From: Armatimonadota bacterium | GTDB taxonomy: Bacteria; Armatimonadota; Fimbriimonadia; Fimbriimonadales; Fimbriimonadaceae | DNA length: 64,000 nucleotides | Reading direction: 5' to 3' | Assembly: GCA_016125185.1 (NCBI GenBank) | Contig: WGMG01000006.1 | Coordinates: 682,001-746,000 of the forward strand | In this document: in pieces, positions 7,411 through 16,150 of the stretch | Layout of the letters: every line of letters starts with the position of its first letter | Numbering within the stretch: the first letter of the stretch is position 1 | The notes under the pieces: generated by a model | Database searches by the model: none | Seen by the model: only the letters and a program-made list of their open reading frames with translations | What the model was told of the DNA's origin: nothing | Program-made: the position numbers and the translations under genes

Positions 7411-7574
7411 CCGATAGATTTGCATACGGATCGAGCAGGTTCCTCGTCCGCTTCGGACGGAAGGATTCTCAATCTTGGTAAGATAGATATTGAAGGGAAT
7501 GACTTCGAGAATCAAGCATCTTGTAAAAGAGGTTGCACTACGGCTCAGGAAGATGTCATACTTTTCTTTCGCAC

Positions 7575-7650
<76 letters not shown>

Positions 7651-7657
7651 TTCGAGT

Positions 7658-7733
7658 GCCACGGTAGCTCAGTTGGTAGAGCAAAGCACTGAAAATGCTT
7701 GGGTCGCCGGTTCGAGTCCGGCTTGTGGCACCA
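7658..7733 (+). tRNA. tRNA-Phe (GAA)
   Basis: Acceptor GCCACGG pairs with TTGTGGC; the anticodon stem AAGCA/TGCTT encloses CTGAAAA with anticodon GAA at 7691-7693; T-arm GCCGGTTCGAGTCCGGC; discriminator A and encoded CCA. The downstream coding frame begins within 20 bases of its 3' end. Confidence 0.97.
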
Positions 7734-7750
7734 TATTCCTCCTTTTCGTA

Positions 7751-8692
7751 ATGGCACCGTTGGCTCATGCCGACCAGACCGCCCAGCTTCAAGACGTTGT
7801 CGTCGTTCATTGTCAGTCGGAAAGCCGCCTGAATGGCCGCTACCGAGTGCTGTCAAACGGTTCGATCAATATTCCGTCGCTTGGCCAGATCGTGGTAGTG
7901 ACCCGTTCAAGCGGGTTGATTCAAAGCCTCATTCAAGACAAGATCGCCGACGTTTATGGGATTCGGGATCAGGTGGTTGTGAGCGTGGTAGCCGACCGAT
8001 CTTCGGCAGTGACGATCACCGGTGCGGTGAAGAAGGAACTGCTTTTGACTCCACCCACCAAGATGACGGCCAAAGAACTGCTGAGCCTGGTGGAGGTGAC
8101 CGACTCGGGCGACGCCAGCGCGGCGTCGGTAACGGACGCTGAAGGGCATTCGGTTCCGCTAACTTCGATGGTTCGACCGGGAGACCGAATTCGGGTGCCG
8201 GTCCAGGCAGCCAGGGCCGAAATTTTCGTGATTGGCGGCGTGGAGAAGCCAGGATCGTTTCGTTTTTATGACGGGATGAGCCTCAAGGCGGCGGTGGAAT
8301 CTGCCGGGGGCGTCGGGCCGCGTGGCGACTCGAAGCGAGTCTTCATTATTCGAAGCGTACAGATGGGACCGTTCGACTTGTCGAAGGATGGCGAAGTAAA
8401 GGTCCAGCGCGGTGACTCGATCCGAGTCGAAGCGAAGGCCGAAGTTCAGTATGTGGCGGTGACCGGACTCGTTCGGAAACCGACCAATGTCGTTTGGTCG
8501 GACAAGCTGACGGCGAAAGACGCCATCAAGCAGGCCGGCGGGGTGGCAAATCCCAATTGCTTTGTGGTGGTGAGGTCGCTGGTGAAGGTCAATAAGCCAG
8601 AAGTGAAGGTCCGCTGGCGCGACTTCGATAAGGACAAAAACAAAGATATTCCGCTGGAACCCGGCGACATTGTGGATGTGGTCGAAAAGTGA
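7751..8692 (+). CDS. polysaccharide export-type SLBB protein
   Basis: A 313-residue protein with a Poly_export/Wza-like beta domain (about 15-90; phrases RYRVLSNGSINIPSLGQIVV and VYGIRDQVVVSVV) followed by two or more SLBB-type ubiquitin-like repeats (VRPGDRIRVPV, FVIGGVEKPGSFRFYDGMSL, VTGLVRKPTNVVW). Such proteins form or gate the periplasmic or outer-membrane part of polysaccharide export channels. ATG 7751 leaves only MAPLAHA as leader; the hydrophobic codons just before it (ATA TTC CTC CTT TTC GTA) would complete a signal peptide but have no normal start codon. The gene runs straight on from tRNA-Phe and overlaps the next gene by GTGA. Confidence 0.75.
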   Translation: MAPLAHADQTAQLQDVVVVHCQSESRLNGRYRVLSNGSINIPSLGQIVVVTRSSGLIQSLIQDKIADVYGIRDQVVVSVVADRSSAVTITGAVKKELLLTPPTKMTAKELLSLVEVTDSGDASAASVTDAEGHSVPLTSMVRPGDRIRVPVQAARAEIFVIGGVEKPGSFRFYDGMSLKAAVESAGGVGPRGDSKRVFIIRSVQMGPFDLSKDGEVKVQRGDSIRVEAKAEVQYVAVTGLVRKPTNVVWSDKLTAKDAIKQAGGVANPNCFVVVRSLVKVNKPEVKVRWRDFDKDKNKDIPLEPGDIVDVVEK

Positions 8693-9456
8693 CGGCTCCG
8701 AAGCCGGTCAAGGCTCGTCCGCCCATCAAGTGGGACCGCACGAAGGGGCGTCCCGAGCCCATACGCCTGCTGAACTACATTGATGAGAAAGAGAATGCCG
8801 ATCCGCTCGTCGATCTGCGCATCGAATGTCCCTCGGTTCGAATTCTGCGACCCCAAGTGATCCCATATCTAAGGAGCAAAGTGGCGGGCATGCTGGAGTA
8901 TGCGGCTCGTTCGCTTCCTGAAGGAATTTATCTCGGCGTGATCGACGCTTGGCGACCGTTCGACCGCCAGCAGAGAATCTACGATTTCGTGTGGGAGTGC
9001 GCGAAGATCGCCTTCCCAGATCGCAATAATGTCGCTTTGCGACGGACCGTTTGCCGATGGGTTGCGCCCACCGACCAAAAGGCCCCTCCTGGGCATTGCA
9101 CGGGTGCGGCGGTTGACGTGTGGCTGGTCGACGAGAACAACGAACCGATCGATGTGACTTCGCCCTACGACCGATTTGGGGCGGCTCCAACCTATGCGTT
9201 TGGGCTGACGGATGAGGCGCAGTACAACCGGAGCGTCCTGGTGGAAACGATGCTGGCGGCGGGATTCTCCAACTGTCGCGACGAATGGTGGCACTATAGT
9301 TGGGGCGATGCGGGTTGGGCGGTGCGGATGGGCCTCAAAGAGTGCGTATACGGGCGCGTCGACTTGCCGAAGGAGCTTTACGAAGAGCAGGAACAACTAT
9401 GGATCGCGGCGATGAAGGACCGCGTGAATCCGTTCATCGAACCGTCTTCACCGTGA
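8689..9456 (+). CDS. D-alanyl-D-alanine dipeptidase-like M15 peptidase (VanX/DdpX type)
   Basis: A zinc metallopeptidase of 255 residues with the three family signatures: DAWRPFDRQQ, HxxGxAxD in GHCTGAAVDVW (zinc ligands H136 and D143) and EWWH (catalytic E199, zinc ligand H202). Relatives hydrolyse D-Ala-D-Ala or peptidoglycan peptides. There is no signal peptide, so it is probably a cytoplasmic recycling enzyme rather than a resistance factor, and no vanH/vanA neighbours exist. The GTG start overlaps the SLBB gene's stop (GTGA), indicating coupling. Converges with the gene at 9448 with a 9-base overlap. Confidence 0.85.
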   Translation: MTAPKPVKARPPIKWDRTKGRPEPIRLLNYIDEKENADPLVDLRIECPSVRILRPQVIPYLRSKVAGMLEYAARSLPEGIYLGVIDAWRPFDRQQRIYDFVWECAKIAFPDRNNVALRRTVCRWVAPTDQKAPPGHCTGAAVDVWLVDENNEPIDVTSPYDRFGAAPTYAFGLTDEAQYNRSVLVETMLAAGFSNCRDEWWHYSWGDAGWAVRMGLKECVYGRVDLPKELYEEQEQLWIAAMKDRVNPFIEPSSP

Positions 9457-10884
9457 GGGTGGTTTTGATAGCTTCCAAGTAAGAGGATTACCGCGATCGT
9501 CCGTGCGCCAGGCGGCAAAGTCGTCGATCGTCTTACGATAATCTCTGGTTGGACTGGATTGCTCTAAGTTGACGGGAAAGGCAATTTGAACGGACGGGAA
9601 TCCGGACTCGTTGAGGCGCTTACTTTGGATTGCGACTCCTCGCTCATCGAAGTAATAGTCAAAGCCTGCGTCGCCAACGTGGCCGGGTATTTGGACTCCG
9701 ATTTCGTGCAGATTTGCCGGATAGTGGCCGGTCTTTGCTTTGGCCTCAAGGGACTTGAAGATGGTTTGGATCAGGGCGTTGGTTTCGACATCGATGTTGA
9801 AGTTTTCCAGGATGCTGTCCGCATCGGTCATGCCGTAGACTTGCATGAGCTGGGGCGGGGCGTCGATCATTGCGTCGAAGCAGGCGGCGAACTCGTCCGG
9901 TCGGTCGAAAGGCGTAATTTTTCCGCCGACTAGGTCGGTCATGAACGGCTTCCATCGCTCAAGGCGTCGGCGAAGGAACCGGCGAACGGTGTGGCTCTCC
10001 GGCATATAGTCGTCTTGGCGGACCTTTCCGGCCTTTTCCAGTTCGGAAAGGGAAGGAGCAGGGAAGAGGCGGGCGAGTGGTCCGCTAAATGTCTTCTTGT
10101 CCATCAGAGTTGAATCGAAGGCTCGGGCGGTAACGACTTGAGCCATGAAGTCGCCTTCGAGAATTCGTAAGTCGTTGCCGTGGTGGAAAAAGTCGGGCGA
10201 CGTGAAGTACTGGGCGACTTCGTGAAGCATTCCGGGCTTGGCTTCCACGATTCGAAGTCCGGCGTTTGCCATGATCTTCATGCACGCGGCGCCCAGGAGG
10301 CGCCCAATGAGTTCGTCTCGAGTTTCGCAATGTTGCGTCAATCGCTTGGCCGAGTCGAAATTCCGACGCATGGCCGAGGTGTCGCCCTGCAATGCGGCGA
10401 CATAGGCGGCAAGGGAATAGTCCTTCACTAGCCCCTTCATCGTCGCGAACTCGGGAAGGAGCATGGCGTACCCCTCGTTGTAGTTGTGGGGCACCTGGAG
10501 ATTGGGTTTGGCGGTGAATGCTTTGTCGATTTTGTCGCGAATGGGCTGATTGACGGCGAGGTAGCGGCGCATCGCCGGGAGGTCCGCCTGTGTTCCGGCC
10601 ATCAGGAGGTCGTTGGCGATGCCGACCCGGTACAACGGGCCGTTGCCAAAGCCGTGCTTGTTGAAGAGGAGCGGGGCAATATCAACCCAGGCGTTTTGGC
10701 TATCGGGGATTTTGTGGAAGAAGTCCGTTCCGTTGGTGGCGACGCCCATCGCTTTGTAATCGGCAATGAGGCGCTCGATAGCTCGTCCGTCGGCGTCGTA
10801 TTGGATTTTTGAGGCGACGACCAAGGCTCCCCCAAAAAAGAGGGTGGTAACAGCGACTCCTGCGGCAAAGTGAATGGGCTTCAA
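9448..10884 (-). CDS. membrane-anchored protein of a tandem paralogue family, copy 1
   Basis: 478 residues with an N-terminal signal-anchor helix (about 5-25) and a large extracytoplasmic part. It shares an ordered set of motifs with the next two genes: DGRAIERLIADYKAMGVATN (about 32-51), FHKIPDSQNAW, QVPHNYNEG (about 130), DYMPES followed by a basic helix ending ERWKPFM, and KTGHYPANL near the C-terminus. No known domain is recognised. The TTG start is chosen because AGGAG lies 10 bases upstream, inside the end of the preceding gene. Last gene of a tight minus-strand operon. Confidence 0.75.
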   Translation of the reverse strand: MKPIHFAAGVAVTTLFFGGALVVASKIQYDADGRAIERLIADYKAMGVATNGTDFFHKIPDSQNAWVDIAPLLFNKHGFGNGPLYRVGIANDLLMAGTQADLPAMRRYLAVNQPIRDKIDKAFTAKPNLQVPHNYNEGYAMLLPEFATMKGLVKDYSLAAYVAALQGDTSAMRRNFDSAKRLTQHCETRDELIGRLLGAACMKIMANAGLRIVEAKPGMLHEVAQYFTSPDFFHHGNDLRILEGDFMAQVVTARAFDSTLMDKKTFSGPLARLFPAPSLSELEKAGKVRQDDYMPESHTVRRFLRRRLERWKPFMTDLVGGKITPFDRPDEFAACFDAMIDAPPQLMQVYGMTDADSILENFNIDVETNALIQTIFKSLEAKAKTGHYPANLHEIGVQIPGHVGDAGFDYYFDERGVAIQSKRLNESGFPSVQIAFPVNLEQSSPTRDYRKTIDDFAAWRTDDRGNPLTWKLSKPPSR

Positions 10885-10889
10885 ATCAC

Positions 10890-12359
10890 TTAGTCTCCTG
10901 ACGGCAATGGTGAGGTCGGCCGACCAGCCTTTGGCCGCTGGCCCAATCGGTCGATGACCCCCTTTCGATAGTCTTGGACGTCTTGTTTCTGCTTTTGTTG
11001 CGATTTGAGGGGGAGGTATGTCGTTGCCGGATAGGAAATGATAAAGTCGGGAGCTCCGTCACCGGCGGTGACGGGCCGAGTCTGAAGGATGAATCCGTTT
11101 TCGGTCAGCTTATAGAGAATCCCCCCGAGGACGGAAAATGAACTAAAATCGACCCCGACGGCGTCCAGCTTCGCCGGATATTTTCCGGTCTTTCGTTTGA
11201 CGTCGAGAATCTTCCAGATCGCCTGATTGGCGTCGGCGAGATGCTTGTTCCGAAAGAGTTGTTTGTAGCCGTCCTCGCTCGCTTCCGACGACGGCGAAAG
11301 GTCGTAGACCTTCTTGAGGCTCTCGGGCTCCTGGGATTGAACGCTCAATACAGCTTCGTACTTAGAGAAAGAGGGGAAGAAGTCGTTGCCTTTGGACTCG
11401 ACCACCTCGCGCATGAGAGGTTTCCACGCCTCCATGACGGCGAGGAGATACTTCCGATCGGCCGCGCTTTCCGGCACATAATCGCCCGGGCGGGGGTGAG
11501 CCTCGAAGTAAAGGTCCTCGTCGGTTGGTGCTTTTTTGAGTTTGTTGAGAGGGAATGGCGGCTCGGAAACGTCGATGAGCGGTGAGTCGAAGTAGCGGAT
11601 GCTCGCGATCTGTGATAAGAACTCATACCGGAAAAAGGGCTTCATATCATAGACGACAAATCGGTCGTTTGTCGTCATGAAGTCGCGAATCGGTTGATAC
11701 AGGTTTGGGGCTTCTTCAATGATTCTGAGAGCCGTTTGGATGACGGTCAGCTGAATACTCGTACCGACGGCCCGGGCGATCCAATCGCCTCGTTCGAGGC
11801 ACGAGTTGGCAAAATCGCAGGCCACTTGCAGGTTCATCGTTGCTTCTTCGGCGTTGCCCTGAATCCCGGATCGGAGCGCGGCGACGCGGAACTCACGAGC
11901 CGCATTGCGGAAGAACGCGCATTCGGGCACAAGCACCATGTCCCCTTCGTTGTAGTCGTGGGGCACCTGAATTTTGGGTTTTTGGCCAAGGACCTTGGCG
12001 ATGGCTTCGCGGGCGCTCTTGTTCTGAGCGAGGTATCTGTCGAGGACGTCAAGGTCGGCCTTGTCGGCGAATCGGACGAGGGTCAACGAAATTCCGGGTT
12101 CGAATACGCCCGAACTCCCCTCGGGCGCTCCCTTCTTGATCAGGAGCGGCTGAAGCTCGTCCCAGGCGTTTTCACTGTCGGGAATCTTGTGGAAGTACTC
12201 TTCGCCGTTGGTGGCAACTCCCATTTCCTTGTATTCCTTGACGAGTTTTTCGATGGTTCGTCCGTTTGCGGCATGCTGGAGTTTGCCACGACCCACCAAA
12301 AAGCCGGATACAGCGATGGCACCGACTGCGATTCCGATAGCAATGTGGAAGGGTTTCAA
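10890..12359 (-). CDS. membrane-anchored protein of a tandem paralogue family, copy 2
   Basis: 489 residues from a TTG preceded by AGGA at 8 bases; the longer open frame to 12446 would overlap the neighbour and lacks this signal. An N-terminal membrane helix (KPFHIAIGIAVGAIAVSGFLV) is followed by NGRTIEKLVKEYKEMGVATN, FHKIPDSENAW, QVPHDYNEG, DYVPES...EAWKPLM and KTGKYPAKL. It is the closest relative of copy 1. The C-terminal KTGxYPAxL resembles the GxYP element of pseudopilin-like folds, which is only suggestive. Five bases separate its stop from the next start. Function unknown. Confidence 0.75.
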   Translation of the reverse strand: MKPFHIAIGIAVGAIAVSGFLVGRGKLQHAANGRTIEKLVKEYKEMGVATNGEEYFHKIPDSENAWDELQPLLIKKGAPEGSSGVFEPGISLTLVRFADKADLDVLDRYLAQNKSAREAIAKVLGQKPKIQVPHDYNEGDMVLVPECAFFRNAAREFRVAALRSGIQGNAEEATMNLQVACDFANSCLERGDWIARAVGTSIQLTVIQTALRIIEEAPNLYQPIRDFMTTNDRFVVYDMKPFFRYEFLSQIASIRYFDSPLIDVSEPPFPLNKLKKAPTDEDLYFEAHPRPGDYVPESAADRKYLLAVMEAWKPLMREVVESKGNDFFPSFSKYEAVLSVQSQEPESLKKVYDLSPSSEASEDGYKQLFRNKHLADANQAIWKILDVKRKTGKYPAKLDAVGVDFSSFSVLGGILYKLTENGFILQTRPVTAGDGAPDFIISYPATTYLPLKSQQKQKQDVQDYRKGVIDRLGQRPKAGRPTSPLPSGD

Positions 12360-12369
12360 GGCGCTGTTC

Positions 12370-13734
12370 CTATGGTATCCGCGTTTGGCCGGATTTCGAA
12401 TGTTGTCGCAGATGGAAACGCTCCATCTGCTTCTTATACATAGCAAGCGCTTGGGGCATCAGGGAATCGGAAATTGGAAATGCCATTTGGTGACCGACGT
12501 TACCGTTCGATGCTTCGAAGTAGGTCGAGTCAAGTTGAAAGCCCTTGGTGGTTTGTCGGTATATGAGATTTGGCGGATCCTTTGAGAACGAAGCCTCTTG
12601 AAGATTGGTGGGGAAGCGGCCATGTTTGACTCTGAAGATGAGGACGGCACGGACGACGGCAAGCAGGTTCCTTAAATCGTGGTACGCATCGAAGTGCTGG
12701 TAACTTATGCTTGCACCCTCCATGTCTTCGAGTAGTTTCTTGAGGCGTTCGGGCACCTGCGGGCCGTATTTCATGCTTTCTTCCAAATCGGTTCTTTCTG
12801 GAATGGCTGATTCCTGTGACCGAGGACCGAACTTGAGCATGAGGCTGCGCCAGGATTCCAAGCGTTCCCGAAGTAACGAACGCCCTGCTCGGCTCTGGGG
12901 GACAAAATCGTCCGTGTGTCTGGCACCGGCTTGCCTTAACTCATCATCGGAGGGCCCCGTTATGTGCCGACCGAGCCATCCAGAGAAAGTCGGCTTATCG
13001 AGCAGAGATGAATCGAGATTTCTTACGGTGGTCACGTCCGTCAAGAACGCCGATAAGACAATGCCGCGACCACTAAATGGTGGCCCCCGAAGTTCGCTTG
13101 CAATGGCCATTGTGGTCTCTGGCCGCACTTCGACGATTTTCATTCCGAAGGCCATCAGTTGTTTCCACATGGTCGCACTGAGAATTGATTCCGAACCTGG
13201 GTAGCCCGAGTAGTAGTTAGCGATATAGGCTGCCGCTTTGAAGTTCTTAAGCGTCGACTTGTCATTCCGTTCGAGCGCATCTACGACCGCAGAAAAGGCG
13301 AACTCATTCATGATCGTATAAGCGTCAAAGTAGCTTATTTGACCAAGTGATGCATTCGAGCTAAGGTCCTTTGATTGGATCAAGAATTGGCTCAGGGTCG
13401 CCTTGTTGCCATTCGCATAATCCCTGAATGCGGACGAGTCTGAGGGGCCACCGGCAAACAGCATTGCCTCAATCGAAGGATACTGGTATTTCAGAAGATT
13501 TCCCTCGTAGGCAAAGCCTAAGTTTGTCCGGCTCTCGTCATCGTGCTTGTAGGCTGGGTACTGTTGATCAAATTCAGACTTCGTCGTCGGAACACCGGCC
13601 GATTTGAGCTCCTTGATGATCCGATTGATCGCCTCACCATCGGCGTTATAGGCTCGATTTCGGACGGCGGAAGAGACAAGCGTCGCGATAATGGCGGCGA
13701 CTGCAATTGCAAGAACGATCCTGACCGGTTTCAC
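12370..13734 (-). CDS. membrane-anchored protein of a tandem paralogue family, copy 3
   Basis: 454 residues, GTG start. It is the most divergent of the three paralogues but has the same layout: N-terminal helix (about 4-22), DGEAINRIIKELKSAGVPT (about 33-51), DFVPQS followed by LRERLESWRSLM, and HGRFPTNLQEASF. The FHKIPDS and QVPHxYNEG motifs of copies 1 and 2 are lost or altered. Seven bases after the small membrane gene and ten before copy 2, so all four genes are probably one transcript. Function unknown. Confidence 0.7.
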   Translation of the reverse strand: MKPVRIVLAIAVAAIIATLVSSAVRNRAYNADGEAINRIIKELKSAGVPTTKSEFDQQYPAYKHDDESRTNLGFAYEGNLLKYQYPSIEAMLFAGGPSDSSAFRDYANGNKATLSQFLIQSKDLSSNASLGQISYFDAYTIMNEFAFSAVVDALERNDKSTLKNFKAAAYIANYYSGYPGSESILSATMWKQLMAFGMKIVEVRPETTMAIASELRGPPFSGRGIVLSAFLTDVTTVRNLDSSLLDKPTFSGWLGRHITGPSDDELRQAGARHTDDFVPQSRAGRSLLRERLESWRSLMLKFGPRSQESAIPERTDLEESMKYGPQVPERLKKLLEDMEGASISYQHFDAYHDLRNLLAVVRAVLIFRVKHGRFPTNLQEASFSKDPPNLIYRQTTKGFQLDSTYFEASNGNVGHQMAFPISDSLMPQALAMYKKQMERFHLRQHSKSGQTRIP

Positions 13735-13741
13735 CTTTCGG

Positions 13742-14128
13742 CTACGCTTTCTTCTGCATCTTGGCCACTCCGAACGTCAGCAGACCCAGCAGGACGCCAC
13801 CAAAAGTGCCTTCGATGACAGCAAGAGCGGCAGTCACCGTCCGTGGGCTGATGCCCTGCGGGTAGGCGCTGAGGAGGTCGCCATGAGTGGCCGAATACGC
13901 GTCGAAGAACGCGAACCGGAACGTCACCAAGTAGATACAGCTAATGATGCCGAGCATGAAGCCGTGGAAGAAGAACTGGCCGGTTGCGTGTTTGGCGATG
14001 AAGTAGGAACAGAACCCGAAAATGAACACCCAGAGGATAACCTCGTACATCTGCGGGATGAAGCTGATCGTGGCGATGGCCATCACGAAGGCAAAGAGTG
14101 ACAAGTAGACCAGCAGTCGCCAATTCAT
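13742..14128 (-). CDS. small integral membrane protein
   Basis: 128 residues with four predicted membrane helices (about 5-24, 29-46, 50-70, 98-122) and almost no soluble domain. ATG preceded by GGGG at 6 bases. It heads the operon with the three paralogues at 9448-13734, so it may help place or anchor them. No family recognised. Confidence 0.65.
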   Translation of the reverse strand: MNWRLLVYLSLFAFVMAIATISFIPQMYEVILWVFIFGFCSYFIAKHATGQFFFHGFMLGIISCIYLVTFRFAFFDAYSATHGDLLSAYPQGISPRTVTAALAVIEGTFGGVLLGLLTFGVAKMQKKA

Positions 14129-14943: not shown

Positions 14944-15531
14944 ATGCCTGATTGGAAGCAAATAACCGACGACAGTCGACTCCCTAACTCGAACGAGTTA
15001 GAGGGATACGACGTTTATGACGTCTTCGAATCTCAGACTCGACCGAGAAAGGTTGGGTCTCCCGACATCGAGCTTCGCCTAGAGTTAGGGGGACGCCTTA
15101 TGGGAACGCTTGATCTTGGCCGTAATGGAAGCGGGTTATTCCGATTCGGTCTGGCCAAGTACGGCGTCTCGTACCAAGTGACTTCGTCGTCGTGCGGCGA
15201 CACGTTCTATTTGGAAGTCTTTGACTTGGAGTTTGAGCGGCTTTTGGGGCGGGCGATGGCGCATGGCATCGTGAGCCTGGTCCACATTATCGGCCTTGAA
15301 GTCGAGCAATCGGTACTCCTGACCGAGGGGCCGTGCGTCAATCTCATGCGCGGGCGTACTTCGGTAACCAAGACGCCGGTTATAGGAAATGGGGAGCGAG
15401 ACGAATCAGCAATTTGTCAGATTTATGTTCGCAAGGACGTCGAGGAGCCCGATTTGCTGGTACTGAATAGCCTTCTGTTGTCTGATCAAGAAGCGTGGCA
15501 TTCCATTACGGCGCGAGTATCCTCTTCCTAA
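14944..15531 (+). CDS. hypothetical protein, paired family copy 1
   Basis: 195-residue soluble protein rich in beta-strand-like segments (IELRLELGGRLMGTLDL, YLEVFDLEFERLL) with a C-terminal signature QIYVRKDVEEPDLLVLNSLLLSDQEAWHSI. That signature recurs in the next gene (RIHVRKD...LLLLGAMVRMNPDCWHTL), so the two arose by duplication. The fold could be a LURP-one/tubby-like beta-barrel, but this is a weak impression. No signal peptide. 13 bases upstream of its paralogue. Confidence 0.6.
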   Translation: MPDWKQITDDSRLPNSNELEGYDVYDVFESQTRPRKVGSPDIELRLELGGRLMGTLDLGRNGSGLFRFGLAKYGVSYQVTSSSCGDTFYLEVFDLEFERLLGRAMAHGIVSLVHIIGLEVEQSVLLTEGPCVNLMRGRTSVTKTPVIGNGERDESAICQIYVRKDVEEPDLLVLNSLLLSDQEAWHSITARVSSS

Positions 15532-15544
15532 TGAAGCAGGTTAG

Positions 15545-16150
15545 GTGTCAATGCCAAAGCTGACTTCGTTTCATGACGGCGACTCAGGGTTCTCGAAAGC
15601 CGAGCATTTTGAACACTATGCTGCTTTCGAGGTGACCAGCGAAAAGCAGTCCTTCTTTGAGAATCCGGCTGACGGCACTACATACCGAATTTACGACGAG
15701 CGTGGACTCCACGCGACATACATTTCAGGCGCCAACGGTTCGTACACGACCTCTGAGAAGCTGTTCGATGTGCGACGAACGATCGCATACGAAGGAAATT
15801 ACGGCGGTCATTACGGTTTAGAAGCGAGTTTGCCCGGTCAAAACTTGCTCCAACTACAGGCCTTGTATTCGTTCAGCATGTTGGGAGTACAGTCGATCGT
15901 GGCAATTCGCGGCCTCGATTTGATTCGGACGACGGAAAACCGAGAGGTGTCGATAGCAGGAATGCGCAACGGTTCGGTACTTACCGCGAAGGCACCTGTG
16001 TGGAAGGATTCCGATACGAGCAGAGGCGTCTTGTTCCGAATCCATGTTCGAAAGGATCTGACCGGGAACCTATGTGATCTGCTCCTCCTCGGTGCAATGG
16101 TTAGAATGAATCCCGACTGTTGGCACACTCTGATAGAAGACCGGCTGTAA
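15545..16150 (+). CDS. hypothetical protein, paired family copy 2
   Basis: 201 residues from GTG 15545 (ATG 15551 is the alternative). It shares with copy 1 the central glycine-rich strand pattern and the C-terminal [IY]xVRKD...LL...WH[ST] signature. Copy 2 has an N-terminal stretch with YRIYDERGLHATYISGANGS. Transcribed with copy 1 and ended by the hairpin at 16159. No role can be assigned. Confidence 0.6.
   Translation: MSMPKLTSFHDGDSGFSKAEHFEHYAAFEVTSEKQSFFENPADGTTYRIYDERGLHATYISGANGSYTTSEKLFDVRRTIAYEGNYGGHYGLEASLPGQNLLQLQALYSFSMLGVQSIVAIRGLDLIRTTENREVSIAGMRNGSVLTAKAPVWKDSDTSRGVLFRIHVRKDLTGNLCDLLLLGAMVRMNPDCWHTLIEDRL

Follow-up and report, generated by a model that had tools for sequence, protein, structure and literature searches.

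A tandem gene array in an Armatimonadota genome, most likely a local expansion within a widespread envelope protein family that has no name, with a predicted pilin-like end

The four-gene cluster

The window, that is, the whole stretch of 64,000 nucleotides analysed here, is part of contig 6 in a 4.52 Mb Armatimonadota genome. On its minus strand it carries a cluster of four genes, one for a small membrane protein and three for longer, mutually similar proteins (paralogues 1 to 3, numbered in the 5'->3' gene order), which are listed below together with the C-terminal domains of the latter (G002 and G009 are two genomes of the same genus):

14128-13742, minus strand: four-helix membrane protein of 128 aa, first gene of the cluster (ORF, and reciprocal best matches at 43-48% identity in both G002 and G009)
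13734-12370, minus strand: paralogue 1, 454 aa, GTG start; anchor, helical body and degenerate pilin-like end (ORF, alignment, family profile match)
12359-10890, minus strand: paralogue 2, 489 aa; begins with TTG at 12359, just after AGGA, and has the MKP start common to the paralogues
10884-9448, minus strand: paralogue 3, 478 aa; begins with TTG at 10884, just after GGAG (AlphaFold model, reciprocal best matches in G009 and G002)
12451..12714, minus strand: C-terminal domain of paralogue 1 (GRFPTNL, then sheet), by alignment to paralogue 3 and relatives
11004..11279, minus strand: C-terminal domain of paralogue 2 (GKYPAKL, then sheet), by alignment to paralogue 3 and relatives
9550..9822, minus strand: C-terminal pilin-like domain of paralogue 3, residues 355-445 (model of the domain alone and its VIA-align matches)

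The ORFs confirm the positions that the initial annotation had given for the four genes, as well as its gaps of 5-10 bp, which measure 7, 10 and 5 bp in gene order. The open frame of paralogue 2 extends upstream to 12446, and a start at that position, which would overlap paralogue 1 by 77 bases, was rejected; since the MKP N-terminus at 12359 matches that of the other paralogues, the latter start is adopted in spite of the longer open frame. At the downstream end of the cluster, the gene of an M15 peptidase (8689-9456, plus strand) is convergent with paralogue 3 (minus strand) and overlaps it by 9 bases, at 9448-9456.

The three longer proteins are 34% (E 2e-83), 26% (8e-30) and 22% (6e-16) identical to each other in pairwise BLASTP, with E-values that argue for true paralogy, far above chance, and the pairwise alignments extend this homology over their length. 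This supports the tandem expansion that had been proposed from the sequence. The shared motifs described at that time are present as well, QVPH-YNEG in two of the three copies; in the remaining one, paralogue 1, it is missing and the version of KTG-YPA-L is KHGRFPTNL. Searches of Pfam, NCBIfam, PADLOC and PDB sequences (the latter searched by phmmer with one of the three paralogues, and also with the family profile) give no family name, in agreement with the earlier statement that no known domain is visible. A likeness of paralogue 1 to GspL (NCBIfam, E 0.07, residues 2-54) was discarded because it covers the membrane-helix stretch only. For the four-helix protein, the candidates FraD and ZorA2 (E 9e-4 and 0.27) were set aside, their scores being 18 and 10 bits where the cut-offs are 400 and 700, and no permease match above cut-off was obtained in Pfam or NCBIfam.

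A large unnamed family

Among fetched loci of the phylum, iterated profile searching converged at 72 ORFs, mostly of more than 400 aa, including all three window proteins. The initial annotation had suggested such a search for distant homologues. At a threshold of E 1e-5, a broad profile built from 56 members (A3) finds matches in 40 of 41 genomes; the window genome has 12 of them and others have up to 22, and pairs or triplets in tandem are common. The family also reaches beyond the phylum: a search with a consensus of C-termini from the relatives brought up 43 loci bearing organism names, from Armatimonadota, Planctomycetota and Verrucomicrobiota plus a few MAGs labelled otherwise, and the family profile matches all 43 of these multi-phylum ORFs, in several cases along the entire profile, with no match among reversed-sequence controls. 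The narrower profile of the window's clade (13 members) recovers 8 of the 43 at E 1e-3 or better. No relative was found with the three-paralogue alignment as query against the genome contigs, a tblastn search of plasmids with a Verrucomicrobial member gave no match, and a literature search found no paper on the family.

The complete plan of the family profile (anchor, G-P...NA motif, helical body and GxYP C-terminal domain) is recognisable in all three paralogues, and their QVPH-YNEG corresponds to a segment of the wider family that reads, for instance, YPIHYEEGF..LP in Verrucomicrobia. Thus, what could be read as a set of proteins peculiar to this locus turns out to belong to a large multi-phylum family, of whose envelope proteins the three genes are most likely a local tandem expansion. 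The residues conserved in at least 90% of the 56 members are only M1, G47, N64 and P389; with N64 as the sole nearly invariant polar residue, this speaks against an enzyme.

Anchor and helical body

The monomer structure prediction proposed with the initial annotation was carried out for paralogue 3 (AlphaFold, 13 sequences), yielding a model with a pLDDT of 84.3 and a pTM of 0.83. In it, an anchor helix (3-45) is followed by a helical body up to about residue 363, a helix at 364-385, the GHYPANL motif and three strands; the N-terminal hydrophobic helix is in line with the membrane anchoring that had been noted. Furthermore, a lipobox is present in several relatives, which fits an extracytoplasmic body.

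Among the matches listed, the search for a known fold of the whole chain yielded only generic helical repeats, designed ones and VPS35 among them, with Z at most 7.4, which is within the chance range for helical folds. Pfam TPR matches are weak and each occurs in one of the 56 members (TPR_2 at 5.7e-4, TPR_9 at 0.008, TPR_16 at 0.016). The body of the family resembles TPR and other helical-repeat scaffolds in being all-helical, with a GD---A--d---A hairpin, although, unlike in them, no regular repeat array is recognised in it.

The C-terminal domain and its likeness to pilins

The initial annotation had pointed to a resemblance between the GxYP end and pseudopilins, which is borne out by several lines of evidence. 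In the relatives, the C-terminal end reads GRYPxxL...DPFSGKPL...YSVGPDGKDDGG...DDI, and Pfam T2SSG, with E-values up to 1 allowed, matches 6 of 28 such ends, the best at 1.4e-5; with the window proteins themselves T2SSG (PF08334) gives no match, even at E 5. Likewise, with E-values up to 0.5 allowed, NCBIfam GspG matches 4 of the 56 full-length members, the best at 0.0045. When the profile of the family end is compared with that of eleven GspG-like proteins from this genus and order, P is 2.8e-5 and the probability 74%. When the end of paralogue 3 was modelled alone (pLDDT 84.2), type IV pilins occupied the first eleven rows among the chains that VIA-align had aligned to it, headed by Thermus PilA4 (6xxd; Z 7.8, 2.4 A, 78 residues). 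Row 12 is an entry named PilM with a Z of 4.2, and Z is down to 3.2 at the first entry that is clearly unrelated. Foldseek by itself returned pilin matches of this end without a significant E-value, and the case for a pilin-like end rests on VIA-align and on the sequence motifs of the relatives. The C-terminal domain of paralogue 3 is thereby predicted to fold like a type IV pilin or GspG head.

As in those heads, the family end consists of a helix, then GxYP and a small antiparallel sheet, and the relatives keep DPF-G-PL and YSVGPDG-DDGG-DD motifs that resemble those of GspG. Unlike them, the family head comes at the very end of a helical membrane protein without a class III signal, and neither the DP nor the DDGG motif survives in the window copies. 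The DP(W/F) and the calcium-loop motif (G-D-GG...D), present in many relatives, are missing from these copies and their clade. Calcium stabilises T2SS pseudopilins (PMC5131608), and since the GspG-type DP and D-D-GG loop are lost in the window's branch, such stabilisation is probably absent there, and any calcium-stabilised docking has probably been lost or changed.

Does a pilin-like head make these proteins pilins? Pilins are defined by an N-terminal class III signal peptide motif (PMC10191384). A motif search of 56 N-termini found no such (prepilin) signal in the 13-member clade of the window, and a loose version of the motif had a single match among the 56 members (L081), outside the anchor start. 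In addition, the pilin-like helix (364-385) and the anchor helix (3-45) lie about 320 residues apart in the same model, so the former is not the membrane helix. Because of this and of the missing prepilin signal, the paralogues are probably not true pilins, and the resemblance, correct in itself, does not hold as a sign of pseudopilins. A parallel exists in the modular minor pilins (PilB and PilC of S. sanguinis; GspK), in which a pilin head is also joined to another domain, but theirs is an N-terminal prepilin helix with a grafted extra domain (PMC8179133, PMC10191384), whereas in the family the pilin head follows the helical body and ends the chain.

Gene order and divergence

In two of the 19 congeners searched, G002 and G009, the corresponding site holds the small membrane gene as well, together with five paralogues in each genome, so that the gene order, whose conservation the initial annotation had left to be checked, is kept in two further species. 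In all three, the array (3 copies in the window genome, 5 in G002 and 5 in G009) lies between tsf (EF-Ts) and the gene of the M15 D-Ala-D-Ala dipeptidase, itself adjoining an SLBB export gene; in G009, two of the five paralogues are upstream of the small membrane protein's gene. The remaining congeners either have tsf and the M15 gene on separate contigs or at a distance of over 20 kb, or gave no match for tsf, and the array is thus a trait of one sub-lineage, found in three congeneric species only. The 43-48% identical reciprocal best matches of the four-helix protein are likewise restricted, among 61 genomes, to G002 and G009. Except for this gene in the three species, no recurrent partner was seen directly beside the family genes.

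In the tree, the array genes cluster together (support 94/90, just below full) with a long-branch relative from G018, which adjoins a glmS-like gene. Some orthologue pairs are resolved: paralogue 3 with G009_5 and paralogue 1 with the third copy of G002 (G002_3), the latter also being the best match of paralogue 1 (28% identity). The reciprocal best matches of paralogue 3 are 37.7% identical in G009 and 35.7% in G002.

Family sequences diverge faster than most neighbouring genes, in a comparison that covers a handful of neighbours and is not a genome-wide rate. When the window genome is compared with G009, identity amounts to 91% for tsf and 80% for the M15 protein, and to 38% for the best array pair; across the three species, syntenic family copies have 26-45% identity and tsf and the M15 peptidase 75-91%. 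At a second locus, a family gene 35% identical stands beside a gene at 92%, and at a third, itself an array, the copies are 27-45% identical and number 4 in the window genome and 7 or 8 in G009. Other envelope genes nearby diverge too (SLBB 65-66%, the four-helix protein 43-48%). No focused hypervariable region was seen, the divergence being spread along the protein, and such a pattern would be compatible with selection and with relaxed constraint alike.

Some further observations concern the surroundings of the family genes. The array at the third locus, a second tandem array of the family, corresponds to L161:6618-11557 on contig 4 of the window genome and L163:1222-11221 in G009. Between the array of the window and tsf, two adjacent genes on the plus strand (14944-15531 and 15545-16150) encode proteins (195 and 201 aa) that end alike, in I-VRKD, and have no Pfam match; they look like another tandem paralogue pair. 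As for the SLBB export gene (7490-8692, plus strand), its longest ORF starts before, then crosses the genes of tRNA-Asp and tRNA-Phe (7575-7733), so its true start must be further downstream.

Proposed function and alternatives

With a probability of roughly 0.55, we infer that the paralogues are binding or scaffold proteins which are anchored in the membrane, lie outside the cytoplasm and carry a pilin-like cap. Each protein would be placed on the outer face of the cytoplasmic membrane, held there by its anchor, while the helical body would act as a binding scaffold in the fashion of TPR proteins and the pilin-like end as a compact cap or docking module, not as a filament subunit. The upstream four-helix protein, because it is found only with the array, is probably a dedicated membrane partner of it, three species being the basis for this. 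As to the multi-subunit surface complex suggested by the initial annotation, the paralogues may or may not form one; their number differs between the species (3, 5 and 5), and the four-helix gene is the one recurrent partner seen.

The pilin-fold end, the existence of real GspG genes in the same genomes and the precedent of modular pilins with grafted domains (PMC8179133, PMC10191384) would also suit unusual minor pseudopilins, with a helical domain before the pilin head, that join a type IV pilus or a T2SS pseudopilus, for example at the tip as GspK does. This is improbable, given that the window copies have no class III signal (the one loose match in 56 members being outside the anchor start), that some 320 residues part the helix of the head from the membrane helix and that several relatives have lipoboxes; nor do the arrays, inspected by eye, show a standout pilus gene alongside. 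The fast divergence could point in another direction, that of recognition or conflict proteins (self/non-self recognition, immunity or a surface facing phages or predators), with selection driving the diversification of their tandem arrays. Changes in copy number (3, 5 and 5 here; 4 against 7 or 8 at the second array) and syntenic copies at 26-45% identity near genes at 75-95% are what such a role would lead one to expect, but the same pattern is expected from relaxed constraint, other envelope genes nearby diverge as well (four-helix protein 43-48%, SLBB 65-66%), the divergence has no single hypervariable patch, and no toxin or defence gene was recognised alongside, nor any PADLOC match, which leaves this reading unlikely.

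The paralogues might instead serve a transporter as its accessory domains outside the cytoplasm, the four-helix protein being the membrane part. There is the example of a Planctomycete member (L146) in which the family domain is fused to an ABC-2-like permease region (6.5e-5, below cut-off), and two others (L121, L123) have three or four extra N-terminal membrane helices. Nevertheless, the window cluster has no ATPase, the four-helix protein no permease match above cut-off, and no transporter gene recurs directly beside the family genes, so little weight is given to this option. The family could conceivably constitute a non-pilin envelope class of up to 22 copies per genome, with the pilin head used as a C-terminal docking module without prepilin processing and diversified rapidly via tandem arrays, perhaps for recognition or for cargo docking on type IV or type II filaments; this is a speculative idea, and an unlikely one.

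The family is abundant in three phyla, yet for the members scanned neither Pfam nor NCBIfam has a model that covers their length with a score above cut-off. The pilin-like end, together with the fast divergence, would give many genes now called "hypothetical" an architecture in common. For annotators there is also a caution: such proteins should not be called pseudopilins.

Finally, a few members deviate from the usual plan of the family at their N-terminus. The fusion in L146 (1364-4204, Paludisphaera soli) is an ORF of 947 aa that combines an N-terminal region resembling an ABC-2 permease (Pfam ABC2_membrane_4, 6.5e-5, below cut-off) with the helical part and YSVGPDG end of the family, and may be a clue to function. 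In L121:903-2666 and L123:2648-4285, the three or four extra N-terminal helices are in effect a fused membrane part.
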